Shown in pieces: positions 6,357 to 48,159 of a stretch of 54,982 nucleotides of DNA. The first letter of the stretch is position 1, and every line of letters starts with the position of its first letter. The notes under the pieces are model-generated. The model saw nothing but the letters and a program-made list of their open reading frames with translations, was not told where the DNA came from and did no database searches. This DNA is from an uncultured Alphaproteobacteria bacterium (GTDB lineage: Bacteria > Pseudomonadota > Alphaproteobacteria > HIMB59 > GCA-002718135). The translations under genes were made by a program, and so were the position numbers. Where the stretch lies: the NCBI GenBank assembly GCA_902518895.1, contig CABYHL010000006.1:1-54982 (forward strand), given 5' to 3'.

Positions 6357-6359
6357 AAT

Positions 6360-30742: not shown

Positions 30743-32473
30743 TTAATTATCTATAATATTTGTTAATTCCATAAAAGGTTTATTAATTTTTTTAGCATAT
30801 TTTTGACAAAAGATATTTTTGATATTTTGAGTTTTTTCAGAAAACCACCAAATATCAATATTTTTATGAATCTTATTAATTTTTTTTGCTGCCTCAATGG
30901 GATTATAAAATAATATTTCTGCATCTATTAACATTTTAAAATCATCTTCATTTTCATAATTATTTTTCCAATATTCTTTTTTATAAAAAATTATTGTAGG
31001 TATATTATGATACATGGATTCTAGCATAGTTGTTTGATTATATGTGCAAATACACAATGAAGAATTAAATAATTGATCAAAATAATTACTTTCGATATCA
31101 ATTTTAATTTCAGGAAATTTATCTTGTATTCTTTCTTTCCAAAACCATCCTCTATTATCGCCTTTTGTTTTAATAATGAGATTATTAAATATATTTTTAT
31201 TTATATTTGATAGAAATTTGAGTAAATCATTGATACTATTTTCAACTTGTGGACCTTGTGGTATGCTATGTAATGTGTAAGAGTATCTTGGCAACCCAAG
31301 AGTGGGAATAAAAATATGTCCATTTTTGTTATATTTATATTTTTTATTATAAATTTTCAAAAAACCTAAATTTACAATTTTTTTATTATCACTTTCCCAT
31401 CCCCAATTTATAAATTTATCACATACACTTAACTCATGCTGTTGATTAAAAAATATTTTAGAAATACCATATCCACCTCCATGCTGATAAATAATTAAAT
31501 TTGATCTATTATTTTCTTTCTGAAAAGCTGTCCAAAACATGAATGAATCATCAGATCTTATACCTAATGCAGATGTAAAAATTTTTTCAACTTTAAAAGT
31601 ATTCAATATTTTTAATCTCTTTTTCATAATTTTAAAACCTTCCAAATAAATTGTGGGGATTAAATTTATAATCAGTTTATTTAAACATTCTTCAAATTCA
31701 TTTTTATAAGATTGAAATTTTATTTTGTTTCTGATTTTTGGATCAAAATTTATATCCAAATTAATCTTATCAAAATTGTATAATAATTTAAAATTAGAAT
31801 CTTCATTAATTAATTTTTTTTCAATAGTTTTATCAATTGATGATTTATAAACCATCCTTTTATAATTTTTTTTAAATTTAAATAAATAGATTAAATCTAA
31901 AATATTTATTAATTTTGTTTTAATACTTTGAATATAATTTCTTTTGTTATTATCAGAATGTGGATCTTCTATTATTTCATATTCAATATTTGAGTAATGC
32001 TTAATAATAATTGAAAAAATATAATGATTAAATTTATCAGTAGTCATTAATTTATGAAAATCTAATAAATTTTTTGGTATGATTGATTCTAATTTATAAT
32101 TTATTATTTTAGTTTGAGAATTATTAAATTTTTTTTCAAATATTTTTATATTTTCATATCTATCAAAAATAATACTTATAAACCATCCCAGCCAAGGACC
32201 TAAAATAATTTCCCAGAAATTTTGGGAATAATCAGTATTATTGTAAGTATTTAGAATTTTAGATAGATCTCTAATTTTTAATTTATATACTTTATCTAAA
32301 TATTTAGTGTCTCTCTCAAATTTAGATATATCATCCCAGTGATATGCAAGATAATTGTTTACTTTGTTTTTTTTAACATAGTTAACACACCATTTACCAA
32401 GATAATAATTATTTTTTTTGTATAAGTTAATTTGATCGAAAGTAGTGACAAGATTAATTTTTTTTAGAGACAT
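30743..32473 (-). CDS. LIC12162-family putative transferase, copy 1
   Basis: A 576-residue member of the LIC12162 transferase family, named after a Leptospira protein from a surface-polysaccharide region. Seen near the N-terminus are GKWCVNY, YHWDDISKF and ILGPWLGWFISIIFDRYE, which recall the family pattern. At 329-336 lies YQHGGGYG, followed by HELSVCDKFINWGW, a GT-B-like donor-binding segment. The C-terminus has IWWFSE. Activity has not been shown for the family as far as I know; transfer of a sugar in glycan assembly is an inference. It is a diverged paralogue of the gene at 33758-35542. Confidence 0.75.
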   Translation of the reverse strand: MSLKKINLVTTFDQINLYKKNNYYLGKWCVNYVKKNKVNNYLAYHWDDISKFERDTKYLDKVYKLKIRDLSKILNTYNNTDYSQNFWEIILGPWLGWFISIIFDRYENIKIFEKKFNNSQTKIINYKLESIIPKNLLDFHKLMTTDKFNHYIFSIIIKHYSNIEYEIIEDPHSDNNKRNYIQSIKTKLINILDLIYLFKFKKNYKRMVYKSSIDKTIEKKLINEDSNFKLLYNFDKINLDINFDPKIRNKIKFQSYKNEFEECLNKLIINLIPTIYLEGFKIMKKRLKILNTFKVEKIFTSALGIRSDDSFMFWTAFQKENNRSNLIIYQHGGGYGISKIFFNQQHELSVCDKFINWGWESDNKKIVNLGFLKIYNKKYKYNKNGHIFIPTLGLPRYSYTLHSIPQGPQVENSINDLLKFLSNINKNIFNNLIIKTKGDNRGWFWKERIQDKFPEIKIDIESNYFDQLFNSSLCICTYNQTTMLESMYHNIPTIIFYKKEYWKNNYENEDDFKMLIDAEILFYNPIEAAKKINKIHKNIDIWWFSEKTQNIKNIFCQKYAKKINKPFMELTNIIDN

Positions 32474-33765
32474 TAATAAATTAAATTATTCTTTAATAGA
32501 ATTTTGTATATTTTATTAATTTCATCAATATTAACTTTTATTTTTTTACTAATATGAAATAAATTGTTTTTACCATCACTATATTGTAAAAAATTTAAAA
32601 TTCTTTTAGAAAAAACATTAATTGATTTGTCACTAATTTTTGGGTAAAGATTTTTTTTTCCTAATTTTGGTTCACAAAAAGTTTTAGTAATAGGAATAAT
32701 TGATTTATCTATGTTTAGTAAAACTTTTTTAAGTAAATACATACTTTCATTTATTCCCTTCAAAGAAATATATTCAAAATTATCATCACTGGTGTGATAT
32801 TCTTTATATTTTCCATAAAGCGATCTTGTAACCGTCGCTATTGGTAGATCAATTCCAAATGAATTATATTGTCTTTCATCACTACGTATTTCATTAAACG
32901 AATATTCATTATATTTAATATTTAATTCTTTATAAGTCTCTTTTAAAACTTTGTCTGAAATAGTGTTATTATATTTTGAAAATATACATGAATAATTTTT
33001 GGTATCTCCTAAACATGTTAAATTATATCCAGCAATTACATTTTTTTTTAATTTTTTAATATTTTTATGGATATAAGCTATTGAACCAATAGTTTCAGGA
33101 ATAAATAAAAATCTCATAGAATAATTATTATTCTTTTTTTTAAAAAAGTTTATTAATGACATAGAAATTATAGGACCTGACAATTCATTATTAGCCATTT
33201 GTGGATGGCAGATATATGTTGATATTAAAATTTCTTTTTTGGATTTTCCTTTTATATAATATTCTGCATAGTGCATTCTTCCATTTTTATTGAAATTACT
33301 ATCAATACAAACTTCAAAAAAATCGTTTTTATTATATTTTTTAATTATATTATCCTTTTCATAATCTGAAATACAGAATCCCCAATAATTTTTATAGTAG
33401 GATGTAACATAAGGAATTACATCAGGTTGATTTTTAAGAGTGTGTAAGTGAGCAACTAGTTTATCTCTTCTAATTTTTTTCCTAATTGGAATAGAGTAAC
33501 CAACTAAATGTAAGTTATTGTTATTAAAATCTATAATTTTTTTCTTAAATTTATCGATAACATATGCTTTTTTTACATTCCATTCTTTTGGTATTTCCCA
33601 ATTGTATACTTTTTGTGTAGATTTAAATGATTTAATTTTTAAATTTGTTTCAATTTTTTTAAAGATTTTTAAAGTTTCTTTGTTTCCATTGCCTGTCAAA
33701 CTTCTATTAATTCTAAAAAGTCTATTTTTAGCTAAATTATACAAAAAAGATGTGTGGTTATTCAT
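32473..33765 (-). CDS. DUF4910 aminopeptidase-like protein with winged-helix tail
   Basis: This 430-residue protein opens NRLFRINRSLTGNGN, as DUF4910 proteins do. It contains an insert (DUF2172-like, about 50-170) and a metallopeptidase-type core. Candidate metal or catalytic residues are His187 in STYICHPQMANNELSG, Glu224 in FIPETIGSIAY, Asp296/Glu297 in SDERQYNS and His324 in EYHTSDDNFEYIS. A C-terminal winged helix covers about 365-430. Relatives occur in surface-polysaccharide clusters and may be amidases or deacylases rather than peptidases. It is sandwiched between two paralogous LIC12162 genes, overlapping them by one and eight bases. Confidence 0.78.
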   Translation of the reverse strand: MNNHTSFLYNLAKNRLFRINRSLTGNGNKETLKIFKKIETNLKIKSFKSTQKVYNWEIPKEWNVKKAYVIDKFKKKIIDFNNNNLHLVGYSIPIRKKIRRDKLVAHLHTLKNQPDVIPYVTSYYKNYWGFCISDYEKDNIIKKYNKNDFFEVCIDSNFNKNGRMHYAEYYIKGKSKKEILISTYICHPQMANNELSGPIISMSLINFFKKKNNNYSMRFLFIPETIGSIAYIHKNIKKLKKNVIAGYNLTCLGDTKNYSCIFSKYNNTISDKVLKETYKELNIKYNEYSFNEIRSDERQYNSFGIDLPIATVTRSLYGKYKEYHTSDDNFEYISLKGINESMYLLKKVLLNIDKSIIPITKTFCEPKLGKKNLYPKISDKSINVFSKRILNFLQYSDGKNNLFHISKKIKVNIDEINKIYKILLKNNLIY

Positions 33766-35542
33766 TATGTAAAATTTTCTTTAAATATTTCTCAGGATTA
33801 TGCAATTTTTTACTGAATCTATTCATAAAGAATATTCTATTTTTTTGGACTATTTTTGAATACCACCATTTATCAATATTATTCCAATTATTATTTATAA
33901 AATCTGTTGCTTCTTCAATATTTGAAAAACAAATATTGGCTTCTAATAGTTTATCGTAATATTTCATTGAAAAATATCTTACTGGTTCAAGAGAGAAGTT
34001 ATGAATCATGATCACAGGTATATTAAAATTTAAACATTCAAGAAATGGGGTTCCATCATGATCTACTATTACTAATTTTGATTGTTTATAATGGTAATTT
34101 ATATTTGGATTTAGTGCAAAGTTAATCTTAGGAAATGCATCTTTCCACCTTTCCTTTTCACAAGCCCAATCATAATATCCTGGGCTAGGTCTAAGCAGAA
34201 AGTTTTTTTTTATTTCAGGTGTAAATTTTTGGTAAATTTTTTTTGAATTTTCATGATATGTCAGCCATTGAGAAGATGATATATTGGAAAATAAATATTT
34301 AAAATATTTTCCAGTAGTGAATGTAACTAATAGTAATTTTTCTTTTTTATTTCTAATTAATTTTTTATTATAATTCTTAATATTACCAAATTTAATTATC
34401 TTATTTTTAAATCTTTTATTTGTCCATCCCCAAGAAAAATAATAATCTGATATTTTAAGTTCATGGTTTTCAAATGAATTTACTTTCATTGTTCCATATG
34501 ATGCCCCATGTTGGCATATAACTAGTTTTGTGCCATTCATCTGACATTTTGCTGCCCAATGTTTAAAATTTTCAGATATTACATGTGCTGTAGAAGTAAA
34601 TATGATTTTTGGATACGTAGTTAAGTTATTTTTTTTTAAATAATTATCAAAAAAATGATAATCTTCTATAAAACTATTTGGTATTAATTTTGGTACTATT
34701 TTTGAACAAAAATTTAAAAAATCGTCTTTATCTTTTAAATTAAAAATTAATTTATCTCTTATAATATTATTATTTTTACTTCCTGAATGAGTTTCAATAG
34801 GAAATTGTCTGTTTATATAAATCTGCCAAAAACTTAATCCAATTTTTAATTCAGTTATTAAATCAAAACTAGAATTTATAAAAATAATTTTTGGTGTTGA
34901 AAAGAAATTTATAATAATTTTTTTAAAAATTTTTTTTAAATTTTTAATTATTCCTGTTCTTTTTTTATTAGATAGATTTGAAATAACTGCAAATTTTCTT
35001 CTAATTGTATAGTTTTTATTATATTTTTTTCTTTCAAATTTTAAATCTTTAAATTTTAAAATTTCTGAAAAAATATAATGATTCCAAATATCATTAGTTG
35101 AACACCCTTGCTTAAAGTGCTGGCTATTAAATGGTATCATTTCATTATGATCAATATTTAAACAATAAGAATTAACTATATGATATTTTTTGTAAGCTAA
35201 GTTAACTATTTCCCATCTGTCAAATAATAAAGAAATAAAGCTATGAAGCCATGGATTCAATAATATTCTCCAATATTGAATTGGATAATTCTTATCATGT
35301 ATTAAATTGAGTTTAGATGAAATTTTTACTAAAATTTCCTCATAAATTTTATCTATATAGATAGAGTCTTTGAAAAATTTGTTTTTATTATCCCAATGAT
35401 AATCAATTATTTTATAATTAATATTTTTAAGACGATTATCTTTATAATTTATGCACCAATTACCAGCAAATAAATTTGTATGATCTTTGTTATAACTCCA
35501 GCTTTCTTCTAAAGAAGTTGAGGAAAATACAAATTTTTCCAT
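33758..35542 (-). CDS. LIC12162-family putative transferase, copy 2
   Basis: The 594-residue protein shares with copy 1 GNWCINY, YHWDNKNKF, LNPWLHSFISLLFDRWE, the CQHGASYG segment (343-350) followed by HELKISDYYFSWGW, and a WWYSK near the C-terminus. Overall identity looks low, so the duplication is old or the two were acquired separately. By analogy with GT-B glycosyltransferases the His-Gly loop would contact a nucleotide donor. It lies five bases after the unrecognised gene and overlaps the DUF4910 gene by eight bases. Confidence 0.75.
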   Translation of the reverse strand: MEKFVFSSTSLEESWSYNKDHTNLFAGNWCINYKDNRLKNINYKIIDYHWDNKNKFFKDSIYIDKIYEEILVKISSKLNLIHDKNYPIQYWRILLNPWLHSFISLLFDRWEIVNLAYKKYHIVNSYCLNIDHNEMIPFNSQHFKQGCSTNDIWNHYIFSEILKFKDLKFERKKYNKNYTIRRKFAVISNLSNKKRTGIIKNLKKIFKKIIINFFSTPKIIFINSSFDLITELKIGLSFWQIYINRQFPIETHSGSKNNNIIRDKLIFNLKDKDDFLNFCSKIVPKLIPNSFIEDYHFFDNYLKKNNLTTYPKIIFTSTAHVISENFKHWAAKCQMNGTKLVICQHGASYGTMKVNSFENHELKISDYYFSWGWTNKRFKNKIIKFGNIKNYNKKLIRNKKEKLLLVTFTTGKYFKYLFSNISSSQWLTYHENSKKIYQKFTPEIKKNFLLRPSPGYYDWACEKERWKDAFPKINFALNPNINYHYKQSKLVIVDHDGTPFLECLNFNIPVIMIHNFSLEPVRYFSMKYYDKLLEANICFSNIEEATDFINNNWNNIDKWWYSKIVQKNRIFFMNRFSKKLHNPEKYLKKILHNE

Positions 35543-35547
35543 TAATT

Positions 35548-37179
35548 CTAGAAAGAATGATCAGCAGAAACTGCTCCAAATTTAGAAATATGAAGATGAT
35601 TACAAATAAAATTAGAATTTTTTACTTTTATTATGTACCAAATAATTTCACTATTTTTTTGTTTAATTAATGAATTATGTGTTTTCAATAAATTGTTTAT
35701 ATTTAAGTTTATAGAATTAGGTGAGATACTATTGAAATTTTTATTAATCAAAAGTTTATCATTGCTATAAATTTTTAAGTTAAAATTACCTTTCTCATTA
35801 TCATCAATCTGTCTATTATAATGAGTTAACATGATATAAGACTCAAATCCATCACCAATAATCAATGGCCCCCAAAATGTTGTTTTATTTATATTCTTTT
35901 CAAAATTTAATAACATTGAAGAGCTGATGTTGCTACCCAATCGATTATTTCTATAATTCATTCCAAAAGTAAAACGAGAAGGGTATTTTTTGTTTATAGA
36001 TTTAAAGTTTAAGCAATAACTTTTATTAAGTCTTTCATTTTCTTTGAGATAGCTATTTATATTTATAGTTTTAGATGTTTTCTCTTCTCTCTTTAATTCA
36101 AATATATTTTTAATTGTTTTTCTTTTTTTTGTTTTATTATCAGTAATTTCTAAATCAGCACTAAGCTTAGTTTTACTATAAATTGGATAAAATACTAAAT
36201 CCAAGTTAGTATTTTTAACAATATTAAATGGCAAGTAACATTTGTATGTTTTTTTATTTTTTAAATCATAATTTAGATAGTCTTTTGTTTTAGAACAATC
36301 ATAATATGAATGTGTAACAGAGGAAAATTTTAAATCAGTTGAATAAGTTCCAACCATGATTCTATTAAAAACATTTTTAGTAGGTGAAATAACTTTGCAA
36401 AAACCTTTTTTACCCAACAAAAAATTTATGGATATATATTTTCTTATATCTAAATAAATAACTTGATATTTATTTAAATAATTTAAGGTAACTGATTTTT
36501 TAATTTTATTACCTTTGTTATTTATTATTAAAATTTCAATTTTATTTTTTTTTAGATCTAGTGGACCATTTATAAAAGTCAAAAAGCTAAAATGTGATTT
36601 ATCATAATAGATATCAAATCCTGTTTGAAGATCATTTAAACTATTATTGGTTAAAGAGTCAGTAATATTATTAAAAGTTCTTTGATTAGAATGCACTGAG
36701 GAATAGCCATTTTTAGTTTCATAAAAAACTTGTAAAGCTGGAAAAGAATATTTTAGATCTTTAGTTGAAAAAAATTCAAATTCAAAAGTTCCTTTATAAT
36801 TAAAAATTTTTAATCTTGTTAATATTTTTTTTAGATCAAATATGTAAGAAAAGTCTATAATTTGAATATGATCTCTGAATATAGTTATACCTAACTCATC
36901 TCTTATTGTATAAAGTAGTCCAATATCATTATTTTTATTCTTAAGTTTCCAATAATTTAAAAAACTAATCTTAGAGTTAATATTTTTATTATACTCTACA
37001 TAAAATATAGCTGAAGCCTTAAAAGTTGGGGTATAATTTAAATTTTTATAATCACCTCTTTTTGCTAATTCAAAAATTAAAGATGAATTTTTATATGAAT
37101 TTATTTTTTTTTTGATTACGTTTTTTAAAATGATTTTTTTTTTATATTTCTTAGCTGTGCCTGTGAGATCTAATGTCAT
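35548..37179 (-). CDS. Unrecognised 543-residue protein, beta-rich, in glycan operon
   Basis: I do not recognise this protein. There is no signal peptide or membrane helix. The pattern of alternating polar and hydrophobic residues with many aromatic and Asn positions suggests beta sandwiches. Distinct stretches are FLNYWKLKNKNNDIGLLYTI (about 70-90), SVHSNQRTFN (about 160), TFWGPLIIGDGFESYIML (about 440), and the very C-terminus ISKFGAVSADHSF. It lies 14 bases after the TylF-like methyltransferase and five before a LIC12162 gene, so it is surely co-expressed with them. A glycan-binding or glycan-modifying role is a guess from context. Confidence 0.6.
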   Translation of the reverse strand: MTLDLTGTAKKYKKKIILKNVIKKKINSYKNSSLIFELAKRGDYKNLNYTPTFKASAIFYVEYNKNINSKISFLNYWKLKNKNNDIGLLYTIRDELGITIFRDHIQIIDFSYIFDLKKILTRLKIFNYKGTFEFEFFSTKDLKYSFPALQVFYETKNGYSSVHSNQRTFNNITDSLTNNSLNDLQTGFDIYYDKSHFSFLTFINGPLDLKKNKIEILIINNKGNKIKKSVTLNYLNKYQVIYLDIRKYISINFLLGKKGFCKVISPTKNVFNRIMVGTYSTDLKFSSVTHSYYDCSKTKDYLNYDLKNKKTYKCYLPFNIVKNTNLDLVFYPIYSKTKLSADLEITDNKTKKRKTIKNIFELKREEKTSKTININSYLKENERLNKSYCLNFKSINKKYPSRFTFGMNYRNNRLGSNISSSMLLNFEKNINKTTFWGPLIIGDGFESYIMLTHYNRQIDDNEKGNFNLKIYSNDKLLINKNFNSISPNSINLNINNLLKTHNSLIKQKNSEIIWYIIKVKNSNFICNHLHISKFGAVSADHSF

Positions 37180-37922: not shown

Positions 37923-38090
37923 TTTTGATTTGAGTAAATATTTTTAATATATTATATCAAATTTACAAGTAAAACAAACGTATATTAATTTAAACATTCA
38001 AAATAGATAAATATTAAAGTTTATACAATTTGTTTTTTGGTATTTTATAAATTAAAAATAACTATATATAAATGTAACCTAACAAATTTT
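37923..38090. promoter_or_regulatory. Divergent gap between the TylF operon and pseB, with promoter candidate
   Basis: This 168-base gap is the longest in the window and extremely AT-rich. On the minus strand an exact TATAAT (37956-37951) lies 28 bases before the TylF-like start; the -35 is only TTTGTT/GTTTGT-like. On the plus side TATATA-type sequences precede pseB but none is convincing. I see no hairpin terminator or tRNA here. Confidence 0.35.
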
Positions 38091-39089
38091 ATGCTCAAAA
38101 ATAAATCAATATTAGTAACTGGTGGAACAGGTTCTTTTGGAAAAAGATTTATTTCAAAAATTATTAAATTTAAACCAAAAAAAATAATAATTTATAGCAG
38201 AGATGAAATGAAACAGTATGATCTCCAAAAAGAATGGCCAGTAACTGATAAAAATCCTTTTAGATACTTCATAGGTGATATTAGAGATATTGAAAGATTA
38301 AAAATTGCAATGGAAAATGTTGATTATGTAATACATGCTGCAGCACTTAAGCATGTACCTTTAGCAGAATACAACCCTTTCGAGGCTATAAAAACAAATA
38401 TTATTGGTGCACAGAATGTAATAGATGCTGCATTACATAACAACGTAAAAAAGATAATTGCTTTAAGTACAGATAAAGCTGCAGCTCCAATCAATCTTTA
38501 TGGCGCAACTAAGCTAGCATCTGATAAACTCTTTATAGCGGCAAATAATTATAGAGGTAATAAAAAGATAAAATTTTCAGTTGTAAGATATGGTAATGTG
38601 CTTGGAAGTAGAGGGTCAGTTATACCTTTCTTTCTTAGTTTAAAAAATAAAGATTATTTTCCAGTTACAGATAAAAGAATGACTAGGTTTAACATAACTT
38701 TAGATCAGGGAGTTGATTTTGTTATTTCTAGTTTATATAAAATGTGGGGTGGTGAAATATTTGTCCCTAAAATACCTTCATATAAAATTACTGACATATT
38801 AAGAGCTATAAATAGTAAAGCAAAAATAAAAAATATAGGAATAAGACCAGGGGAAAAACTTCATGAATATATGATAACCAAAGATGATTCAATAAATACT
38901 GTTGAGTTTAAAAAGTATTTTGTTATTTTACCGCCATCTAAATTATGGAATGTAAATAAATTTTTAAAAAAAGATATTAAAGATATAGGTAAATTTAAAA
39001 AATATGGATTTGAATATAATAGCCTAGATAACAAACAATTTTTATCAGTGGAAATATTAAAAAAACTTATTAAAGAGATAGATAAGTGA
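38091..39089 (+). CDS. pseB: UDP-N-acetylglucosamine 4,6-dehydratase (inverting)
   Basis: PseB starts pseudaminic acid synthesis by dehydrating and C5-epimerising UDP-GlcNAc. The sequence begins MLKNKSILVTGGTGSFGKRF, then YSRDEMKQYDLQ, RYFIGDIRD, AALKHVPLAEYNPFEAI, LSTDKAAAPINLYGATKL with the catalytic Asp-Lys and Tyr-x3-Lys, and RYGNVLGSRGSVIPFF. All are typical of the inverting enzyme. I chose ATG 38091 (332 residues) over an upstream TTG at 38037 because the conserved start matches. Its TGA overlaps the GTG start of pseC. Confidence 0.93.
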   Translation: MLKNKSILVTGGTGSFGKRFISKIIKFKPKKIIIYSRDEMKQYDLQKEWPVTDKNPFRYFIGDIRDIERLKIAMENVDYVIHAAALKHVPLAEYNPFEAIKTNIIGAQNVIDAALHNNVKKIIALSTDKAAAPINLYGATKLASDKLFIAANNYRGNKKIKFSVVRYGNVLGSRGSVIPFFLSLKNKDYFPVTDKRMTRFNITLDQGVDFVISSLYKMWGGEIFVPKIPSYKITDILRAINSKAKIKNIGIRPGEKLHEYMITKDDSINTVEFKKYFVILPPSKLWNVNKFLKKDIKDIGKFKKYGFEYNSLDNKQFLSVEILKKLIKEIDK

Positions 39090-40234
39090 ACATAATCAAT
39101 TACACAAAACAATATTTAGATAAAGAAGATAAAAAAATTATTTTAGAAGTTTTAAACTCAAGTAACTTAACTCAAGGTAAATATGTTAATAGGTTTGAAA
39201 ATAACCTAAAAAAATATTTCAATTCAAAATTTTGTACTGCAGTATCTAGTGGTACAGCAGGATTACATTTAGTAAGCAAAGCTCTTGGTTGGGATAATAA
39301 AGATTACATTGTCACAACACCAATTACCTTTATAGCGTCAGCAAATTCAATTGAATACTCAAATGCAAATACTTTGCTATGCGATATTGAAGATAAATAT
39401 AACACAATAGACCCAAATAAATTAGAGGATCTAATTAAAAAAAATATTAAAAAAAATAGAAAAATTCGTGCAATTATTGCAGTAGATTATGGAGGAATGT
39501 TATGCGATTGGAGTGCGCTAAAATTTATTTCTAATAAATACAATATTATTTTAATTAATGATAATTGTCATGCTCTTGGGTCTAGATATAATAATAATAA
39601 AAGTTATGCGCTTAATTATGCACATATAGTTGTTCAAAGTTTTCATCCTGCAAAAAATATTACCACTGGAGAAGGTGGTGCGGTTTTGACAAATATTAAA
39701 AAAATAAATGATAAAATTAGATCTTTTAGAACTCACGGTATAGATTATTTAAAAAAAAGAAAATATAATTGGGACTATTCTATAAGTGAAATTGGATACA
39801 ATTATAGGATTACAGATATCCAATGTGCATTAGGTATAAGTCAATTAAAAAAAATTAATAAATTTACAAAAAAGAGAAATGAAATAGCAAAAATTTATAA
39901 TAAGAAAATTAATAATGAATTAATCAAGACCCCTTTTTCTAAAAAAAAGGTTTATAATTCTTTTAACCTATATCCTATAAAAATAAATTTTAAAAAAACT
40001 AAAATTAATAAATTAGAAATGTATAATTTATTTAAAAAAAACAAAATAAACTTACAAGTTCACTATAAACCAATTCATTTTTATGAATATTATAAAAAAA
40101 AATATAATTTTAGTGAAAATTCTTTTCCAATATCAAAAAAATTCTATGATAGTGTTTTTTCATTTCCAATATACTATGATTTATCAAGTAATAATCAAAA
40201 TAGAGTCATTAATATATTAAATAAAATTATTTAA
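39086..40234 (+). CDS. pseC: UDP-4-amino-4,6-dideoxy-N-acetyl-beta-L-altrosamine transaminase
   Basis: PseC is the PLP-dependent aminotransferase of step two. The 382-residue DegT/DnrJ-type sequence has SSGTAGLHLVSKAL near 54, TTPITFIASANS, DNCHALGS, and the PLP lysine Lys190 in SFHPAKNITTGEGGA, then RSFRTHG and YNYRITDIQCALG. It starts with GTG overlapping the pseB stop. The 3' end overlaps the convergent pseF by 18 bases. Confidence 0.93.
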   Translation: MNIINYTKQYLDKEDKKIILEVLNSSNLTQGKYVNRFENNLKKYFNSKFCTAVSSGTAGLHLVSKALGWDNKDYIVTTPITFIASANSIEYSNANTLLCDIEDKYNTIDPNKLEDLIKKNIKKNRKIRAIIAVDYGGMLCDWSALKFISNKYNIILINDNCHALGSRYNNNKSYALNYAHIVVQSFHPAKNITTGEGGAVLTNIKKINDKIRSFRTHGIDYLKKRKYNWDYSISEIGYNYRITDIQCALGISQLKKINKFTKKRNEIAKIYNKKINNELIKTPFSKKKVYNSFNLYPIKINFKKTKINKLEMYNLFKKNKINLQVHYKPIHFYEYYKKKYNFSENSFPISKKFYDSVFSFPIYYDLSSNNQNRVINILNKII

Positions 40235-40903
40235 ATTAATTTTTTTTATATATTTCAGATCACTGTGATTATCTAAATCAAATACCTCATCTTTTTCGAG
40301 TATTATTGGAATTGAATTGTTTGAAATTGGTTCTATCTCGTTTTCAAAAGCTGTAGATCTTCCAAAATAAAATTGGCCCGCATCATGATAATATTTTTGA
40401 AAATCTTGAGTTCTTTTTTTTATATTATCTGGCCACGTGGTCTTAATGATATTATTTTTAAATGTAAAAGCTCTCTGAATAGGATGATTATACTCTGTGA
40501 TTGTTATTACATATGATTTTTTTTTATTTTTATTTAATAGTTGAAATGCTCTTCTAACATAATTTACATTTAATAATAATGATGTGGGATAAACACAGCA
40601 TACATATTTAAAATGAATATTTTTTTTCTTATACCAATATATAGCATGTTTAACTACTTTACTTGCTCTAGTATTATCATCGGATAAATTTTTAGGTCTA
40701 AGAAAAGGAGTTTGAGCTCCATATCGGTTTGAGATATCAATAATTTTTGATGAATCTGTTGAAACAATAATTTTATCAAATATCTTACATTTAATTAGTT
40801 TTTTTATAACATAATAAATTATTGGCTTATTATTAACTTTAATTATATTCTTGTTTTTTATTCTTTTACTTCCAATTCTTGCAGGAATAATTGCTAAATT
40901 CAT
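40217..40903 (-). CDS. pseF: Pseudaminic acid cytidylyltransferase
   Basis: PseF activates Pse to CMP-Pse, the last step. The 228-residue protein opens MNLAIIPARIGSKRIKNKN, the CTP-binding motif of CMP-sialate synthetase relatives, and continues VSTDSSKIIDIS, FLRPKNLSDDNTRASKVV and YHDAGQFYFGR. The ATG at 40903 overlaps the upstream stop as ATGA, which decides the start against a TTG seven codons earlier. It is the last gene of the leftward Pse operon. Confidence 0.92.
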   Translation of the reverse strand: MNLAIIPARIGSKRIKNKNIIKVNNKPIIYYVIKKLIKCKIFDKIIVSTDSSKIIDISNRYGAQTPFLRPKNLSDDNTRASKVVKHAIYWYKKKNIHFKYVCCVYPTSLLLNVNYVRRAFQLLNKNKKKSYVITITEYNHPIQRAFTFKNNIIKTTWPDNIKKRTQDFQKYYHDAGQFYFGRSTAFENEIEPISNNSIPIILEKDEVFDLDNHSDLKYIKKINLNNFI

Positions 40904-41505
40904 AATTTTTTTAACAAAAACCAAGTAAGGTTATCTTGAGGATATTTGTAATCATTCTTATATAAAAAACCATAATCAACTAAATTTAAATTGTAATCGT
41001 TAAGCATTTCGCCTGCAAAATCTCTTTTGAAAAGTTTATTTTTGAATTTTCTATAATTAATTTTTATAGGAGTTGGGTTAAAATATTCTACAAGTAATAT
41101 ATATTTATTAGAAAGTTCATAAATTTGTTTATAATATTTTTTTAATTCATGCGGATCTATATGAATTAAAACCCCTTTAGTAAAAACTAAATCATATCTT
41201 TTGCTACTCTTAAAATTTTTGAATGTTCCTAAATAATTTTTTGATATTTTCTTTTTATTAAGAATTTCAATAGATTTTTTGTTAATATCAATACCATATA
41301 GTTTAATTTTAGGCGCAATTTTGTTAATAGCTTGCAAATTCAAACCAATATTACAACCTACTTCAAAGACACTATCAATTTTTAAAAAATATTTTTTTAG
41401 TTTTTTAAAGAAAGCTATATTGGAATTTAATATGTTTTCATCATTATTTCTGGATATATAATTATTTCCAAAATTACCCTTCCAAAACTTTTCTTGCTCA
41501 TTCAT
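40900..41505 (-). CDS. Pseudaminic acid biosynthesis-associated methylase
   Basis: A 201-residue class I SAM methyltransferase starting MNEQEKFWKGNFGNNYISRN, the opening of the Pse-associated methylase family. It has FEVGCNIGLNLQAI for SAM binding, FTKGVLIHIDP, and the C-terminal RDFAGEMLNDY and DNLTWFLL. The family is defined by its place in Pse clusters; the methylated position is not known to me. It overlaps pseF by four bases and follows the amidotransferase after one base. Confidence 0.85.
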   Translation of the reverse strand: MNEQEKFWKGNFGNNYISRNNDENILNSNIAFFKKLKKYFLKIDSVFEVGCNIGLNLQAINKIAPKIKLYGIDINKKSIEILNKKKISKNYLGTFKNFKSSKRYDLVFTKGVLIHIDPHELKKYYKQIYELSNKYILLVEYFNPTPIKINYRKFKNKLFKRDFAGEMLNDYNLNLVDYGFLYKNDYKYPQDNLTWFLLKKL

Positions 41506-41506
41506 T

Positions 41507-42640
41507 TTATGATCTTTTTAATTTGAGTATCCACTCTTTTTTATTATTTAAATAAAAAATTTCTTTGTTAACAAAATTATCTATTATACTATTGTATTCT
41601 TCTAGAGATATATTTAAGTAATTACAGAACTTTGTAATATTTTTTGGATTAACTTTCCCATCAATTTTTCTTACTATTTTTAATGCTTCTTGTCTTGAAA
41701 TTAATTTTTCTCTAATCATAATATTAAGTTGATCTGTAGCTCTACCATAGCCATATTTTAAATACTTTATAGACTCTCTTATATCAATAAACTCCATATC
41801 ACAATTTTCTTCTGTCATAAAAGACCCGTATTGTGGCTTCTCAAGACTCTTCCAACCATATTTTTTTTTAACAAATTTAGTATGCTCTACTGGTGTCCAT
41901 TTAAAAAAGTGTCCATAAAAAATTGCTTTAATATTATTTTTTTCTATTAATTCATCATCTGGATAAAATAGAATTTTAATATCATCTTTTTTTGTATCTT
42001 CATCAATCATATCTTCTTCTCTGTACCCTCTCATACCTCCAAATTCTTGGCGCCATCTTTTGTTCATAACCATATTATCTCTAGAATATTTAGGACCCCC
42101 ATATTCAAAAATTGGATTTTCACCATATATAATCAGTGGAATTTTAAACTTTACAGCTATATGAATTGGTATCGTAAATATGCCTACATGATTAACCCAG
42201 TAAGGATCGCCTACAGTTTCAAAACCTTTATAAACAAATTTTTTTACTATATTTGGATTCAAAGTAAAATGTATATGGTCTACGCCAATTGATTTTAAAA
42301 CCTCCAAGTTATGAGTACCTATATCTGATTGATCAAATTGATCAAAGGTAACTGCTAAAACTCTTAATCCATGAATTACCTTCATAGCATGAGTTTGCCA
42401 CGTACTATCCTTGCCACCACTTACGGGAACAATACAATCATATTCTCTGAATTTAGTGGATTGAAGTGTTTCTTGAATAATTTGATTAAATTCTTTTGAT
42501 CTTTCATCCCAATTTAAATCACTTTGGCTATTTAAATGTTTTCTTTTAGCAGAGTTACAAGCATCACAAATATCATCTTTATCAAAATAAATATCAGGTT
42601 TAGTATTCGGGAATAAACAATTTTTACAATATTTAATCAT
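41507..42640 (-). CDS. N-acetyl sugar amidotransferase (WbpG/PseA type)
   Basis: A 377-residue PP-loop ATP pyrophosphatase. Four cysteines (C5, C8, C25, C28) look like a zinc site, and the ATP motif SGGKDS lies at 74-79. Later segments EYGGPKYSRDN, FGGMRGYREEDMID and YGRATDQLNIMIRE fit the family that turns an N-acetyl group into an acetamidino group on nonulosonic or mannuronic acid precursors. WbpG in Pseudomonas works with HisH- and HisF-like partners, and both are encoded directly upstream here. The gene overlaps the HisF-like gene as ATGA. Confidence 0.88.
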   Translation of the reverse strand: MIKYCKNCLFPNTKPDIYFDKDDICDACNSAKRKHLNSQSDLNWDERSKEFNQIIQETLQSTKFREYDCIVPVSGGKDSTWQTHAMKVIHGLRVLAVTFDQFDQSDIGTHNLEVLKSIGVDHIHFTLNPNIVKKFVYKGFETVGDPYWVNHVGIFTIPIHIAVKFKIPLIIYGENPIFEYGGPKYSRDNMVMNKRWRQEFGGMRGYREEDMIDEDTKKDDIKILFYPDDELIEKNNIKAIFYGHFFKWTPVEHTKFVKKKYGWKSLEKPQYGSFMTEENCDMEFIDIRESIKYLKYGYGRATDQLNIMIREKLISRQEALKIVRKIDGKVNPKNITKFCNYLNISLEEYNSIIDNFVNKEIFYLNNKKEWILKLKRS

Positions 42641-43386
42641 TTCATTCTTATAGATATTTTATTATTTTTTAAATATTCTTTTATTGAAATAATTGTTTCA
42701 CCAATCCAAAAAAAAATACTGCCTGCAGCTACAGCTTCTGCACCTGCATTAAATGCTTTTAAAAAATCTTCTTTTGATCCACAGCCACCCATAGTAATTA
42801 CTGGCACATTACTAATTTTAGTAATAATTTCAATAAAGTTAATATCAAATCCTTTCATCGTACCGTCCAAATCGACAAAATTAATTAAAACTTCACCTGC
42901 GCCTAATTTTTCAATTTCTTTTATTTCAATTAATGGGTCTAGTGGATTTTTATTTTCCAAATTTTTAATCATAAACGGTATATTATTTTTTCTAATAATA
43001 TCCATACAAACAACAACTGATTGATTGCCAAAATATTTTGCAATTTGTTCAATAACTTTTCTATTTTCAAAATAAGACGTTTTAATTACTATTTTATCCG
43101 CCCCACTTTCAAATAGTCTTTTTGCATTATCTAAATTTCTAATTCCACCTCCAACAGTTAGAGGCATATTGCAAAATTTACTTATTTCATAAATATTAGA
43201 ATAGTTTATTTTATTATTATCATAAGCATCAATATCTAAAATAAACATTTCATCTGCAAATCTTTTTGAAAAAACTTTTGTTGTAGATACAAAATCTCCT
43301 ACAATTCTATGTTCATCAAATTGAATTGATTTTACTATTGAACTTCCCTTAATAAGTAATGCTGGGATTATTCTTTTTTTTAACAT
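42637..43386 (-). CDS. HisF-like ammonia-transfer subunit for sugar amidotransferase
   Basis: A 249-residue (beta/alpha)8 barrel of the HisF family, with LTVGGGIRNLDNAKRLFESGADKI and VITMGGCGSKEDF for phosphate binding. Canonical HisF opens with IIPCLDVKDGRVVKG, whose Asp11 is catalytic. Here the segment is IIPALLIKGSSIVKS with Leu11. The second catalytic Asp, in VVVCMDI, is kept. Loss of Asp11 argues against cyclase activity in histidine synthesis. It supports a role channelling ammonia to the amidotransferase whose gene it overlaps. Confidence 0.87.
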   Translation of the reverse strand: MLKKRIIPALLIKGSSIVKSIQFDEHRIVGDFVSTTKVFSKRFADEMFILDIDAYDNNKINYSNIYEISKFCNMPLTVGGGIRNLDNAKRLFESGADKIVIKTSYFENRKVIEQIAKYFGNQSVVVCMDIIRKNNIPFMIKNLENKNPLDPLIEIKEIEKLGAGEVLINFVDLDGTMKGFDINFIEIITKISNVPVITMGGCGSKEDFLKAFNAGAEAVAAGSIFFWIGETIISIKEYLKNNKISIRMK

Positions 43387-43387
43387 T

Positions 43388-44008
43388 TTATAAATTATAA
43401 AAATTTTTTAATAACTTTAACCCAGGTTCTTGACTTTTTTCTGGATGAAATTGAAAACCGTAAATTTTGTTTTTCTGTATTGCGCCAATATAATTTTCAC
43501 CTGAATAATTAAAATTCATTGTTTTAGCCTGTCGATCATTTACATTTATTGAATAACTATGAACAAAATAATAATTTGACTCTATATCAATAGAATTAAA
43601 TAAATTTATGTTAATTTTTTTTTCAAAATTATTCCAACCTACGTGAGGAAGTTTTATTTTCCTATTTTTATCCATTTTATCAACAGTTCCTGTAATAAGA
43701 TCTAAACCTTTTGTAGCTTGAAATTCATATCCTTGAGACATAAGTAATTGCATTCCAACACAAATACCCAATAAATATCCTCCTTTTTTAATATGATTCT
43801 TAATTAGCTTAGTAAAACCAAAAGAATTTAAATTACTCATAGCAGAAGGAAAGGAGCCCACTCCAATTAAAACAATTTTATTAAATTTTTCTATTTCATC
43901 AGGATTATCAGAAACATAGGTATCAATGTTAATCAGATTAAAGCCATTTTTTATAGATATAATATTTCCAATTTTATAATCGATTATAGCAATGGTCTCT
44001 TTATTCAT
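43388..44008 (-). CDS. HisH-like glutaminase for sugar amidotransferase
   Basis: A 206-residue class I glutaminase with Cys83 in LLGICVGMQLL and His188/Glu190 in FQFHPEKS; GVGSFPSAM and LPHVGWNNF are HisH-family segments. Its HisF partner follows after one base, then the PP-loop amidotransferase. No other histidine gene is present, so the trio most likely makes an acetamidino group on the pseudaminic acid. First gene of the five-gene leftward operon hisH-like, hisF-like, amidotransferase, methylase, pseF. Confidence 0.87.
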   Translation of the reverse strand: MNKETIAIIDYKIGNIISIKNGFNLINIDTYVSDNPDEIEKFNKIVLIGVGSFPSAMSNLNSFGFTKLIKNHIKKGGYLLGICVGMQLLMSQGYEFQATKGLDLITGTVDKMDKNRKIKLPHVGWNNFEKKININLFNSIDIESNYYFVHSYSINVNDRQAKTMNFNYSGENYIGAIQKNKIYGFQFHPEKSQEPGLKLLKNFYNL

Positions 44009-44119: not shown

Positions 44120-44572
44120 ATGTATATTTTAAGAAAAGCTAATTTCAAAGATAATTTAGATATATTTAATTGGAGAAATGATGAAACTTCCAGAAAAATG
44201 TTTTTTAATACAAAGAAAATTAAATGGAAAGAACACTGTATTTGGTTTGAAAGCAATTTAAATAATAATAAAAAATGCCTATTAATTTGTAGTAGGAAAA
44301 ATAATTTTAAAGTTGCAATTATAAGATTCGATTTATTAAAATATAAAGCAAAAATTTCAGTAAATTTGAATCCATCTATGCGTGGAAAAGGTCATGCAGT
44401 AAATTGTTTGAATTTATCTTTAGAATACCTTAAAAATTTTTATCCAAATATAAAAAGTATTATAGCTGAAATCAAATCTAATAATATTGTGAGTATAAAA
44501 ACTTTTGAAAAAATTGGATTTATATTTGTTAAATCCAAAGAAAATATTTTGCACTATGAAAAGAAATTATGA
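44120..44572 (+). CDS. pseH: UDP-4-amino-4,6-dideoxy-N-acetyl-beta-L-altrosamine N-acetyltransferase (GNAT)
   Basis: A 150-residue GNAT acetyltransferase. It opens YILRKANFKDNLDIFNWRND, with FNTKKIKWKEHCIWFES typical of PseH-like GNATs and the acetyl-CoA loop MRGKGHA near 92. PseH acetylates the 4-amino group made by PseC. Weak general similarity to RimJ-type enzymes exists, but the four-base overlap with pseG decides the assignment. Confidence 0.85.
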   Translation: MYILRKANFKDNLDIFNWRNDETSRKMFFNTKKIKWKEHCIWFESNLNNNKKCLLICSRKNNFKVAIIRFDLLKYKAKISVNLNPSMRGKGHAVNCLNLSLEYLKNFYPNIKSIIAEIKSNNIVSIKTFEKIGFIFVKSKENILHYEKKL

Positions 44573-45651
44573 CAACTAACTTTGTTTTTAGAGTAGATTC
44601 CTCTATTAATATAGGATCAGGTCATGTTAGCAGGTGTATAAATTATGCTTTGTATCTTAAGAAACTTGGTAATAATGTAAGTTTTGTATGTAGAGAGTTA
44701 AATGGAAATATTATACATAAAATAAAGTTAAATAAAATTAAAGTCCACATTCTAAATTTAAGACAAAATAATAAATTAAAAAAAAAAAGAAATTATAATA
44801 AATTTTTAGGAGATACCTTAAAAAATGATCTCGAGGATACAATATCAGTTATCAAAAGGTTTGATAAAGTAGATTTACTGATAATTGATCACTATTGGAT
44901 AAATTATAGTTGGCAAAAATTAATAAAAAATTATGTTAATAAAATATTAGTAATAGAAGACCTGTATAATAGAAAGCATTACTGTGATTTCCTTTTAAAT
45001 TATAATAACTTTAGTAACGCAAAAAAAATCTATTCAAAATTAAATAATAAAAATACTAGACTTCTTCTCGGTCCAAAATATTTATTACTACCTAAAGATT
45101 ACTATTCAAATTATAATAGAATTGATCTCAATAAAATAAAAATTTTTATTTTTTTTGGGCACTCTGACAATAATAATTTAACTATTAAAGTTTTAAGGTA
45201 TTTAATAAATATTAAAAATTTTAATTTTTTTTACAATATTGCAATTGGTGAAGAATCAAGAAAATTAAAATTAATAAAAAAACTTTTTGGTAAAAGCAAA
45301 AATTACAAAATATTTGTGCAAACAAAAAATATTAAAAAAGTTTTATTGAATAGTCACTTAGCAGTTGGATCTGGTGGATTTAATTCTTTTGAAAGAATTA
45401 GATTATGTGTTCCGTCAATTGTAATCAGTAATGCAGCAAACCAAAATTGGGTATGTAAATTTTTATCTAATAAAAAATTAATAGAATATTTAGGTAATGA
45501 AAAATCTATTAACAAATCTGTATTTGAAAATAAAATTAAAGAATTAATTTATAATTATGATAATAAAATTAATATATTATTAAAAAAACAATATTTATTT
45601 CCAAAGGAATCAATGGATAATTTACATAAAAAAATTATGAAATATATTTAA
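44569..45651 (+). CDS. pseG: UDP-2,4-diacetamido-2,4,6-trideoxy-beta-L-altropyranose hydrolase
   Basis: PseG removes UDP from the diacetamido sugar before condensation. The 360-residue GT-B-like protein opens FVFRVDSSINIGSGHVSRCINYA, with the Gly-His loop carrying the catalytic histidine, then IIDHYWINYSW and VGSGGFNSFERIRLCVPSIVI, the UDP-binding C-terminal motif. An uninterrupted run of 11 A bases (44778-44788) lies within the coding region. The frame is intact here. Confidence 0.9.
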   Translation: MTTNFVFRVDSSINIGSGHVSRCINYALYLKKLGNNVSFVCRELNGNIIHKIKLNKIKVHILNLRQNNKLKKKRNYNKFLGDTLKNDLEDTISVIKRFDKVDLLIIDHYWINYSWQKLIKNYVNKILVIEDLYNRKHYCDFLLNYNNFSNAKKIYSKLNNKNTRLLLGPKYLLLPKDYYSNYNRIDLNKIKIFIFFGHSDNNNLTIKVLRYLINIKNFNFFYNIAIGEESRKLKLIKKLFGKSKNYKIFVQTKNIKKVLLNSHLAVGSGGFNSFERIRLCVPSIVISNAANQNWVCKFLSNKKLIEYLGNEKSINKSVFENKIKELIYNYDNKINILLKKQYLFPKESMDNLHKKIMKYI

Positions 45652-45743
45652 ATTTATAGAATTAAAAATATCTTTTGTATTATCAGATATTAAACTTTAA
45701 TGTTAATAATTATTAGCTTATAAATAATACAAGTTTAAGTTTT

Positions 45744-46427
45744 ATGAAAGTTTTAGTTGTAGTAGCTCACCCTGATGATGAAGTTCTTGGTTGTGGAGGA
45801 ACAATAGCAAAATATTCAAAAAATGGACATAAAGTAAATATAGTTATTGTCTCTGAAGGTTTAACTTCTAGAGATAATGAAAGAAATTTAAATAAAAGAT
45901 TATTACAATTAAATTCTTTAAAAAAACAATCTAAAGAAGCTTCTCAAATTTTAGGCGCTAATTCAATTGAATTTCTAAGTTTACCAGATAACAGACTAGA
46001 TAGCTTAGATTTAATTGAAATTGTAAAAAAAATTGAAAAAATAGTTTTTAAATTTAAACCTCAAGAGATTTTTACTCATCATTATGGTGATCTAAATATT
46101 GATCATAGAATAGTACACCAAGCTGTTATGACAGCTGCAAGACCTCACTCTGCAGATTTTGTAAAAAAAATAATAACATTTGAAAATCCATCTAGTACCG
46201 AATTTCAATCTTTAAGTTTTAACAGTTATTTTAAACCAAATTATTTTCAAGATATTGAAAATTTTTTACCATTAAAGGTAAAAGCGCTAAAAAAATATAA
46301 ATCAGAAATTAGACAATGGCCTCATTCTAGATCAACTAAGTTTTTAGAAATATTAGCAAAATACAGAGGATCAATATCAGGTTTGAAATTAGCTGAGGCA
46401 TTTTTTATTGAAAGATTTATTAATTAA
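45744..46427 (+). CDS. PIG-L (LmbE) family N-deacetylase in the Pse locus
   Basis: A 227-residue PIG-L deacetylase. The zinc and catalytic motif AHPDDE is at 8-13, and the second zinc site is in HHYGDLNIDHRIVHQAV. VSEGLTSRD and MTAARP are other family segments. PIG-L enzymes remove N-acetyl groups from amino sugars. It lies 92 bases after pseG and 17 before a formyltransferase, so removing one acetyl from a Pse precursor before re-acylation is a reasonable inference. Some nonulosonate clusters carry PIG-L genes. Confidence 0.87.
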   Translation: MKVLVVVAHPDDEVLGCGGTIAKYSKNGHKVNIVIVSEGLTSRDNERNLNKRLLQLNSLKKQSKEASQILGANSIEFLSLPDNRLDSLDLIEIVKKIEKIVFKFKPQEIFTHHYGDLNIDHRIVHQAVMTAARPHSADFVKKIITFENPSSTEFQSLSFNSYFKPNYFQDIENFLPLKVKALKKYKSEIRQWPHSRSTKFLEILAKYRGSISGLKLAEAFFIERFIN

Positions 46428-46444
46428 ATGATGTAGAGATCTAT

Positions 46445-47122
46445 TTGGATAATATTATTTTACTAACCAACAAAATATATGGGGAAAGCATATTTGAAGA
46501 TCTTATAAAATCTAATTTGCCTTATAAATTTGTACTCATAAAAAATAAAAATAAATTTACTCTAAAAAAAATACAGAAACTCAAACCAAAATATATTTTT
46601 ATTCCTTTTTGGTCTTCAATTATAAGTAGAAGTATTTATTCAAATTATACTTGTATTAATTTTCATATTAGTGATTTGCCTTTTGGAAGAGGTGGTAGTC
46701 CTTTACAAAATTTGATAATTAAGAATTTTTCAAAAACAAAAATTTCAGCATTTAAATGTAATGACATATTAGATGGAGGAGATATATATTTAAAAAAAAA
46801 TTTAAATCTTAAAGGATCTGCAGAAAAAATTTTTAGAAATTCATCTAAAATTATATTTGAAATGATCTGTGAAATTTTAAAAAAAAATATACTACCTAAA
46901 CCTCAAAAAGGTAAAGTTTTTAAATTTAAAAGAAGAGAGCCTAATCAAAGTAATTTAAAAAATATTAAAGATTTAAAAATCATGTATAACATGATTAGAA
47001 TGTTAGATGCTGAAGAGTATCCTAAATCTTATTTGGAAACTAAACATTTTAAATTTGAATTAACTAATGCAAAATTGTATAAAAAAGAATTAATAGCTTC
47101 AGTAAAAATAAAAAAAAAATGA
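46445..47122 (+). CDS. Formyltransferase-family protein in the Pse locus
   Basis: A 225-residue protein of the Fmt/PurN-like fold. The catalytic triad is visible as Asn72, His74 in INFHISDLPFGRGGSPL, and Asp110 in LDGGDIY. Such enzymes use N10-formyltetrahydrofolate to formylate an amino group, as on 4-amino-4,6-dideoxy sugars. The start is TTG at 46445 with AGAG 7 bases upstream; no ATG fits the frame. The stop overlaps pseI by four bases. Coupled with the deacetylase, it suggests an N-formylated Pse derivative. Confidence 0.85.
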   Translation: MDNIILLTNKIYGESIFEDLIKSNLPYKFVLIKNKNKFTLKKIQKLKPKYIFIPFWSSIISRSIYSNYTCINFHISDLPFGRGGSPLQNLIIKNFSKTKISAFKCNDILDGGDIYLKKNLNLKGSAEKIFRNSSKIIFEMICEILKKNILPKPQKGKVFKFKRREPNQSNLKNIKDLKIMYNMIRMLDAEEYPKSYLETKHFKFELTNAKLYKKELIASVKIKKK

Positions 47123-48159
47123 AAATAGAAGATATAAATATAGGTTTAGATCACCCGCCTGTAATAATTGCAGAAATGTCTGGTAATCATAATAATTCAT
47201 TAGAAAAAGCATTAGAGTTAGTTGAAATTGCGGCTAAAAGTGGGGCAAATATATTAAAACTTCAAACTTACAAACCAGAAACAATGACCATAAATTGTAA
47301 AAATAAATATTTCCAAATTAAAGATAAAAAAAGCCCTTGGTATGGGAGATATTTATTCGAATTATATCAAGAAGCAAATACTCCATGGGAATGGCATAAA
47401 GAAATAATATTTCAAGCCAAAAAATTAGGTTTAATAACCATAAGCACTCCTTTTGATGAAACGTCAGTTGATTTTTTAGAAGATCTTGGAGTGCCAGCTT
47501 TTAAGATTGCTTCATTTGAAAATAATGATTTTAATTTAATAAAGAAAATTTGTAATAAAAATAAACCTATAATTTTGTCTACTGGTTTATTAAGTTTATC
47601 AAAATTATCTGAAGTTTATGAGTTTTTAAAAATTAATTTACGTGATAATTTTGCATTATTAAAATGCACTAGTAATTATCCATCTGATCCAAAAGATAGC
47701 AACATATTAACAATCCCAAATATGAGAAAATTATTTTCTTGTGAAATTGGACTTTCTGATCACACTCTTGGGATTGGAGTGCCTATTGCATCTGTCGCAT
47801 TAGGAGCAAGTATAATAGAGAAACATTTTATTAAATCTAGAAAATTAGGTGGGCCAGACGCTTCTTTTTCTTTAGAGCCAAATGAATTAAAAGATTTAGT
47901 TACGCAATCGAACATTGCATGGAAATCACTAGGAAAAATAAATTATTCTATAACTAATAACGAAGCAAATTCTCTTCAATTTAAAAGATCCATATTTATA
48001 ACTGAAGATATAAATAAAAATGAATTATTAACAAAAAAAAATTTAAGAATTATAAGACCAGGCCATGGTTTAGACCCAAAGTACTTTGACATTATACTCG
48101 GAAAGAGAGTAAAAAAATCTGTGAAAAAAGGAACTCCTTTTTCTTGGAGTTTAATTTAA
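47119..48159 (+). CDS. pseI: Pseudaminic acid synthase
   Basis: PseI condenses the 6-deoxy-AltdiNAc with PEP to give Pse. The NeuB-like barrel (about 1-280) shows IAEMSGNHNNSLEKAL, LQTYKPETMTI, STPFDETSVDFLEDLGVPAFKI and SDHTLGIGVPIA. A C-terminal SAF antifreeze-like domain (about 285-346) has FKRSIFITEDI and IRPGHGLDP. The HNNS/PETMT pattern favours PseI over NeuB or LegI. Length is 346. Two further residues of substrate preference cannot be judged. Confidence 0.92.
   Translation: MKIEDINIGLDHPPVIIAEMSGNHNNSLEKALELVEIAAKSGANILKLQTYKPETMTINCKNKYFQIKDKKSPWYGRYLFELYQEANTPWEWHKEIIFQAKKLGLITISTPFDETSVDFLEDLGVPAFKIASFENNDFNLIKKICNKNKPIILSTGLLSLSKLSEVYEFLKINLRDNFALLKCTSNYPSDPKDSNILTIPNMRKLFSCEIGLSDHTLGIGVPIASVALGASIIEKHFIKSRKLGGPDASFSLEPNELKDLVTQSNIAWKSLGKINYSITNNEANSLQFKRSIFITEDINKNELLTKKNLRIIRPGHGLDPKYFDIILGKRVKKSVKKGTPFSWSLI

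Follow-up and report, generated by a model that had tools for sequence, protein, structure and literature searches.

We analysed a window of 54,982 nucleotides, contig CABYHL010000006.1 of an uncultured, probably SAR11-type alphaproteobacterium with a genome of 1.27 Mb, in which the genes for a PIG-L N-deacetylase (45744–46427, + strand) and a formyltransferase that we call FT1 (46445–47122, + strand) lie within a cluster for the synthesis of pseudaminic acid (Pse). The two enzymes probably form an acyl-exchange branch of the Pse pathway, in which the acetyl group at C2 of the sugar is swapped for formyl to give N5-formyl Pse. PseB, PseC and a PseH-type GNAT acetyltransferase would make UDP (uridine diphosphate)-2,4-diacetamido-2,4,6-trideoxy-altrose. 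PIG-L would hydrolyse its C2 N-acetyl group, which originates in UDP-N-acetylglucosamine (UDP-GlcNAc) and whose nitrogen becomes N5, FT1 would put a formyl group on the freed amine with N10-formyl-tetrahydrofolate as donor, and PseI would then yield Pse with a formyl group on N5 and an acetyl group on N7. The remaining acetamido group may become acetamidino through PseA, HisH and HisF. The analysis shows the gene identities, the catalytic His/Asp and zinc residues, a conserved association of PIG-L and FT1 with one another as well as with PseI, and, by prediction, the FT1 fold. We infer both reactions, their formyl donor, acylation at N5 and the timing with respect to PseG.

A first-pass annotation of the window had read the gene order as pseH, pseG, PIG-L, formyltransferase and pseI (44120–48159, + strand), which the open reading frames and family scores confirm, with a PseH-like protein in first place. 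It also proposed that an acetyl group is removed and a formyl group added on the free sugar, after PseG. The exchange itself stands, as the simplest joint function of the pair, but its placement on the free sugar is not supported: gene order varies between loci, and the exact step therefore does not follow from it. That annotation left the nitrogen unnamed; comparative evidence favours C2-N, the future N5.

Recurrence of the PIG-L/FT1 cassette

Scanning genome_contigs with an alignment of FT1 returned 326 relatives. The best 80 of these, together with one locus on a cyanobacterial plasmid, make up the set of 81 loci used throughout, all retrieved by FT1 similarity alone. They span 20 named phyla, archaea included. 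The same PIG-L subfamily is present in 75 of the 81 loci, overlapping or directly adjoining FT1 in almost all of them, and most of the remaining cases have only pseI in between. PseI is found in 76, across many taxa and gene orders, and the exceptions are at contig ends; likewise, in each of the six loci that lack PIG-L, no more than ~1.5 kb separates FT1 from the end of the contig. Since the loci were chosen by FT1 alone, the association of PIG-L, FT1 and PseI is more than chance. Either FT1 or PIG-L most often lies directly beside PseI or PseG, with the order around these two genes varying between loci. The distances of FT1 correlate most strongly with those of PIG-L (r = 0.64). This correlation and the association with PseI across phyla bear out the assignment of the pair to the Pse pathway rather than to lipid or core-sugar tailoring, as the first-pass annotation had it.

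The pair is a minority accessory, as indicated by a sample of 247 Bacteroidota genomes in which PseI exceeded its cut-off in 36 genomes and FT1 was found in the centre genome alone, whose locus was known beforehand, apart from one weak match. Among 101 relatives of the window genome, six have PseI over the cut-off, and two of those six have FT1. In the FT1 tree, the window protein pairs with one other alphaproteobacterium within a Bacteroidota-dominated set (98/85), a placement compatible with horizontal transfer. On the PseI tree the FT1 label requires ~16 changes, which indicates that the cassette was gained or lost repeatedly; no PseI clade dedicated to the cassette was found, and to judge from this tree PseI seems tolerant. 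A search for FT1 in phages gave no match, and none was confirmed on viral contigs.

The formyltransferase and the deacetylase

FT1 matches PDB entry 1zgh by sequence with an E value of 9e-56 and 43% identity. Its alignment-based model has a pLDDT (predicted local distance difference test) of 96.9 and matches 1zgh over the full length (Z 31.8, root-mean-square deviation 1.2 Å over 225 residues). The next closest structures are formyl-tetrahydrofolate enzymes such as HypX, Fmt, FDH and ArnA, with many formyltransferase structures at Z 17–32. FT1 has the fold (Formyl_trans_N) and the family score of a sugar N-formyltransferase, which is its predicted activity. Its identification as methionyl-tRNA formyltransferase (Fmt) was rejected: FT1 reaches 39 bits against TIGR00460, where the cut-off is 201.5, and contig C19 of the same genome carries a separate gene that is Fmt-like and matches PF00551 in full (145 bits). 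Orthology to PseJ was rejected as well (22.7 bits against PseJ, 348 against 1zgh).

The protein in 1zgh comes from Clostridium thermocellum and is annotated 'methionyl-tRNA formyltransferase'. In a C. thermocellum genome (G760) whose FT1 is 100% identical to 1zgh, the gene adjoins PIG-L and pseG, and pseI, pseF, pseB and pseC are located around it. On the strength of this neighbourhood and the family scores, the Fmt annotation of 1zgh is probably wrong, and so, probably, is the name of the Pfam model PF21553. No function for 1zgh was reported in the literature searched.

The features singled out in the first-pass annotation are all present in the window: the AHPDDE motif of PIG-L (residues 8–13), Asn72, His74 and Asp110 of FT1, and a four-base overlap of FT1 with pseI. 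However, Asn72 did not hold up as a kept catalytic residue. Across 79 fetched FT1 sequences this position is Val in 63, Ile in nine and Asn in one, Cys also occurring, so that the Asn-x-His...Asp triad is not conserved in the family even though the window protein has the Asn. We therefore dropped Asn72 as a sign of catalysis; because it is not a family hallmark, the support for catalysis comes from His74 and Asp110, both invariant among the aligned homologues.

In PIG-L, the zinc ligands and base (His9, Asp12, His121 and Asp11) are invariant in an alignment of 31 homologues, a D-N-DH motif is also present, and 72 of the 75 cassette copies have intact active-site motifs. Among solved structures, diacetylchitobiose deacetylases and BshB-like enzymes are the closest. 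By its PF02585 score (106.5 bits, cut-off 28.2) and these residues, the window protein is a predicted N-deacetylase.

The nitrogen that is probably re-acylated

In the altrose precursor, the acetyl group on the C2 nitrogen comes from UDP-GlcNAc, while PseC adds the C4 nitrogen as a free amine, which is acylated later. A new acyl group at C4 requires just another transferase; a new one at C2 requires a deacetylase first. Because only the GlcNAc-derived acetyl group calls for a deacetylase, the exchange would be at C2, which is N5 of Pse. Characterised PIG-L enzymes likewise take off C2 N-acetyl groups.

The genes near FT1 point the same way. A PseH-type GNAT alone was detected in 47 of the 81 loci, a second formyltransferase (FT2) alone in 12, both in three and neither in 19, where presence calls for weak GNATs are approximate, the annotation profiles having been built in this analysis and trained on the same loci. 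GNAT and FT2 avoid each other near FT1 (Fisher p = 4e-4, for loci that are not phylogenetically independent). PIG-L and FT1 are kept whichever N4 enzyme is present; the pair therefore appears independent of N4 acylation, which points to N2. Strict mutual exclusion of GNAT and FT2 was rejected, since fusions break the rule, both in archaea and in a genome from the same genus as the window. These fusions join PseG, a PseH-like GNAT and FT2 in single polypeptides (L129:7229–9466, L130:8673–10901 and L131:7499–9637); the archaeal ones have no PIG-L nearby, and the one in the window's genus has it. A single open frame of 376 residues on an Omnitrophota contig joins PIG-L and a PseH-like GNAT (L050:3431–4558). 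Both kinds of fusion tie these activities to one pathway. The Pse cluster of Campylobacter coli C8C3 (L095) holds the cassette and an additional FT2, whose match reads through one TGA.

Alternative explanations

N7-formyl Pse is structurally proven in nature (PMC6222762), and the exchange might concern the C4 nitrogen (N7 of Pse), with FT1 formylating N4, PIG-L removing the acetyl group added by the GNAT, or the GNAT re-acylating N2 after PIG-L. The GNAT scores well under the PseH cut-off, the PIG-L–GNAT fusion would suit a GNAT that acts on the PIG-L product, and the PseG–GNAT–FT2 fusions show that a GNAT and a formyltransferase can coexist. We nevertheless consider exchange at C4 unlikely, given that PIG-L and FT1 are retained where FT2 seems to substitute for the GNAT. 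Moreover, acetylating N4 only to undo it would be wasteful, as a formyltransferase such as PseJ could simply act on the product of PseC, and the C2 preference of characterised PIG-L enzymes speaks against it. That the pair serves another amino sugar within the same surface glycan and simply shares its location with the Pse genes is very improbable: PIG-L does occur with another formyltransferase and without a synthase for nonulosonic acids (NulOs) in haloarchaeal loci and in Bacteroidota loci (L189 and L190), but those loci use a different family, FT3, whereas FT1 itself keeps company with PseI except at contig ends. It is scarcely more probable that FT1 transfers another group, is a hydrolase or is a structural partner of PIG-L. 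The Val, Ile or Cys in place of Asn in almost all members would fit such a role; on the other side stand the invariant His and Asp, a fold that spans the whole formyl-tetrahydrofolate domain, and the pairing of distant FT3 formyltransferases with PIG-L in legionaminic acid (Leg) clusters, which suggests that the formyl group is what is wanted.

A further alternative concerns timing and is compatible with exchange at C2. The same chemistry could quite possibly take place earlier than on the free sugar, with the UDP-sugar as substrate ahead of PseG, or later, with Pse or CMP (cytidine monophosphate)-Pse as substrate once PseI has acted. The gene order around PseG and PseI differs among loci, C1-substituted sugars are often PIG-L substrates, and the PIG-L–GNAT fusion links PIG-L to an enzyme of the UDP stage. 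Against such other timing stands the usual place of FT1 or PIG-L directly beside PseI or PseG, though position proves no order.

Several observations weigh against N5 formylation by the pair. Neither GNAT nor FT2 was detected in 19 loci, and a rule by which FT2 formylates N4 where GNAT would acetylate it fails to explain the archaeal PseG–GNAT–FT2 fusions without a nearby PIG-L. The canonical Asn is absent from nearly all FT1 proteins, which makes it less than certain that they transfer formyl in the usual way, and from FT2 too. The formyl-Pse structure found in the literature searched carries its formyl group on N7, not N5 (PMC6222762), and the published Halorubrum cluster names a formyltransferase and no deacetylase (PMC6137143). 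We found no biochemistry or glycan data for any carrier examined.

The Pse gene set of the window

The window contains a complete Pse set, every canonical step being represented by a family member or near member as judged by profile scores. On the + strand, pseB, for the inverting UDP-GlcNAc 4,6-dehydratase (38037–39089; TIGR03589, 497.6 bits, cut-off 407.8), is followed by pseC, for the UDP-4-keto aminotransferase (39086–40234; PF01041; TIGR03588, 386 bits, narrowly below the cut-off of 423.5). Further along the same strand lie the pseH-like gene for the predicted N4-acetyltransferase (44120–44572; PF13302; TIGR03585, 50 bits, below the cut-off of 93.1), pseG for the UDP-sugar hydrolase (44569–45651; TIGR03590, 229.6 bits, cut-off 153.6), PIG-L, which is predicted to expose the amine at C2 (later N5), FT1, predicted to N-formylate it (TTG start; PF21553, 60.3 bits, cut-off 27; PF00551, 28.3 bits, cut-off 26.1), and pseI for pseudaminic acid synthase (47119–48159; TIGR03586, 445 bits, cut-off 340). 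Four-base overlaps join the pseH-like gene to pseG and FT1 to pseI (ATGA), and PIG-L and FT1 are 17 bases apart. The CMP-pseudaminic acid synthetase gene pseF is on the − strand (40217–40924; TIGR03584, 252 bits, cut-off 205.7). Thus PseB, PseF, PseG and PseI exceed their NCBIfam cut-offs, and PseC and PseH fall below theirs, though with the right fold family and position. The PseH position is occupied by a divergent GNAT, whose 50 bits against a 93-bit cut-off make its substrate less certain than those of the other steps.

Adjoining the cassette on the − strand (41507–44008) are genes for a PseA/WbuX-type N-acetyl sugar amidotransferase (41507–42640; TIGR03573, 325.7 bits, cut-off 203.2), its HisF-like partner (42637–43386; PF00977, 173.7 bits) and a HisH-like glutamine amidotransferase partner (43388–44008; PF00117, 61 bits), which predict that the nitrogen still bearing an acetamido group becomes acetamidino. 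The residue could then end up at 301.127 Da, or as a formamidino form if the amidotransferase accepts formyl. A methyltransferase gene lies among these genes and pseF on the same strand.

Outside the Pse set, a second, different formyltransferase with the canonical Asn (FNFHLGLSPWYRG) is cut by the contig end (54369–54982, + strand). The sugar island, with a guanine-cytosine content of ~19–27%, also encodes large proteins of 576, 594 and 543 residues (30743–32473, 33758–35542 and 35548–37179, − strand) without a Pfam match at E 1e-6.

PIG-L with other partners

In the Bacteroidota sample, the same PIG-L subfamily also occurs beside NulO synthases without FT1, with other acylating genes near: carbamoyltransferases (L173), ATP-grasp proteins (L175 and L178), hexapeptide transferases (L176 and L177), a protein that resembles a second GNAT but is unmatched in Pfam (L174), a GNAT recognised by Pfam in a Leg-type cluster (L181), and, directly beside PIG-L in two Leg-type clusters (L179 and L180), FT3. 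An archaeal cluster (L135) combines FT3 and PIG-L with a NeuB/PseI-type synthase, pseB and pseC. It is tenable, as a tentative generalization, that PIG-L belongs to an N5 acyl-swap module of the Pse and Leg pathways, in which the conserved deacetylase exposes the amine that stems from GlcNAc and one of several interchangeable partners (formyltransferase, GNAT, carbamoyltransferase, ATP-grasp ligase or hexapeptide transferase) re-acylates it, giving varied N5 groups in many bacteria and archaea.

In the Pse cluster of locus L173, PseI and PIG-L lie between two carbamoyltransferase genes (4933–6663 and 8679–10466), which suggests carbamoylated Pse. The haloarchaeal loci fetched carry FT3 mostly outside NulO clusters, with one inside (L135). 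FT3 lies directly beside PIG-L with no NulO synthase in haloarchaeal loci L191–L195; paired deacetylation and formylation may thus serve other amino sugars too.

Discussion

The proposed exchange offers a testable function for a formyltransferase family annotated as methionyl-tRNA formyltransferase in PDB 1zgh, Pfam PF21553 and genome annotations. A 2025 paper assigns to translation a gene of C. coli clade 2 that is named 'methionyl-tRNA formyltransferase' (PMC12102941); this may be the cassette FT1 of C. coli C8C3. The exchange also predicts that hundreds of species from many phyla carry a Pse with a mass 14.016 Da below that of the usual form, a residue that searches for diacetyl forms alone would miss. 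If present, formylated Pse bears on glycan mass searches, on phage and immune recognition and on the prediction of surface sugars from genes.

N-formyl groups at C5 or C7 of NulOs are known (PMC6388019), in agreement with the first-pass annotation. Its remark that the gene arrangement was not known to have been described also agrees with our search, in which no paper on a PIG-L and formyltransferase pair in NulO synthesis was found in the open-access literature, subscription papers lying outside the search; yet with 326 FT1 relatives the arrangement is not rare. Two surveys, one from 2026 on Pse clusters in Clostridium and one on NulO clusters in Vibrionaceae, have neither 'formyl' nor 'deacetyl' in their main text. 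N-formyl NulOs are thus already known, and what we did not find described in that literature is a deacetylate-then-formylate cassette.

All steps of the canonical Pse pathway of Helicobacter and Campylobacter (PseB, PseC, PseH, PseG, PseI and PseF) are represented in the window, which differs from it in two additional enzymes, a PseH-like protein below the family cut-off and a predicted product with one formyl group. PseJ, which formylates the PseC product directly, is a formyltransferase named for the Pse pathway (PDB 6ci2, 6ci4, 6ci5 and 6edk), as in the role predicted for FT1; in contrast, FT1 is distant in sequence and is accompanied by a deacetylase and a PseH-like gene. The 1zgh protein of C. 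thermocellum shares the family and fold of FT1, and its gene is likewise beside PIG-L and PseG with PseI nearby. Halorubrum sp. PV6 makes 5-N-formyl-legionaminic acid with a formyltransferase gene in the cluster (PMC6137143), resembling our prediction in the N5 formyl group on a NulO and differing in being legionaminic and archaeal. The pilin glycan of P. aeruginosa 1244, in which Pse carries formyl on N7 and hydroxybutyryl on N5 (PMC6222762), shares with the predicted residue a formyl group on Pse and a non-acetyl acyl group on N5, and differs in the position of the formyl group.

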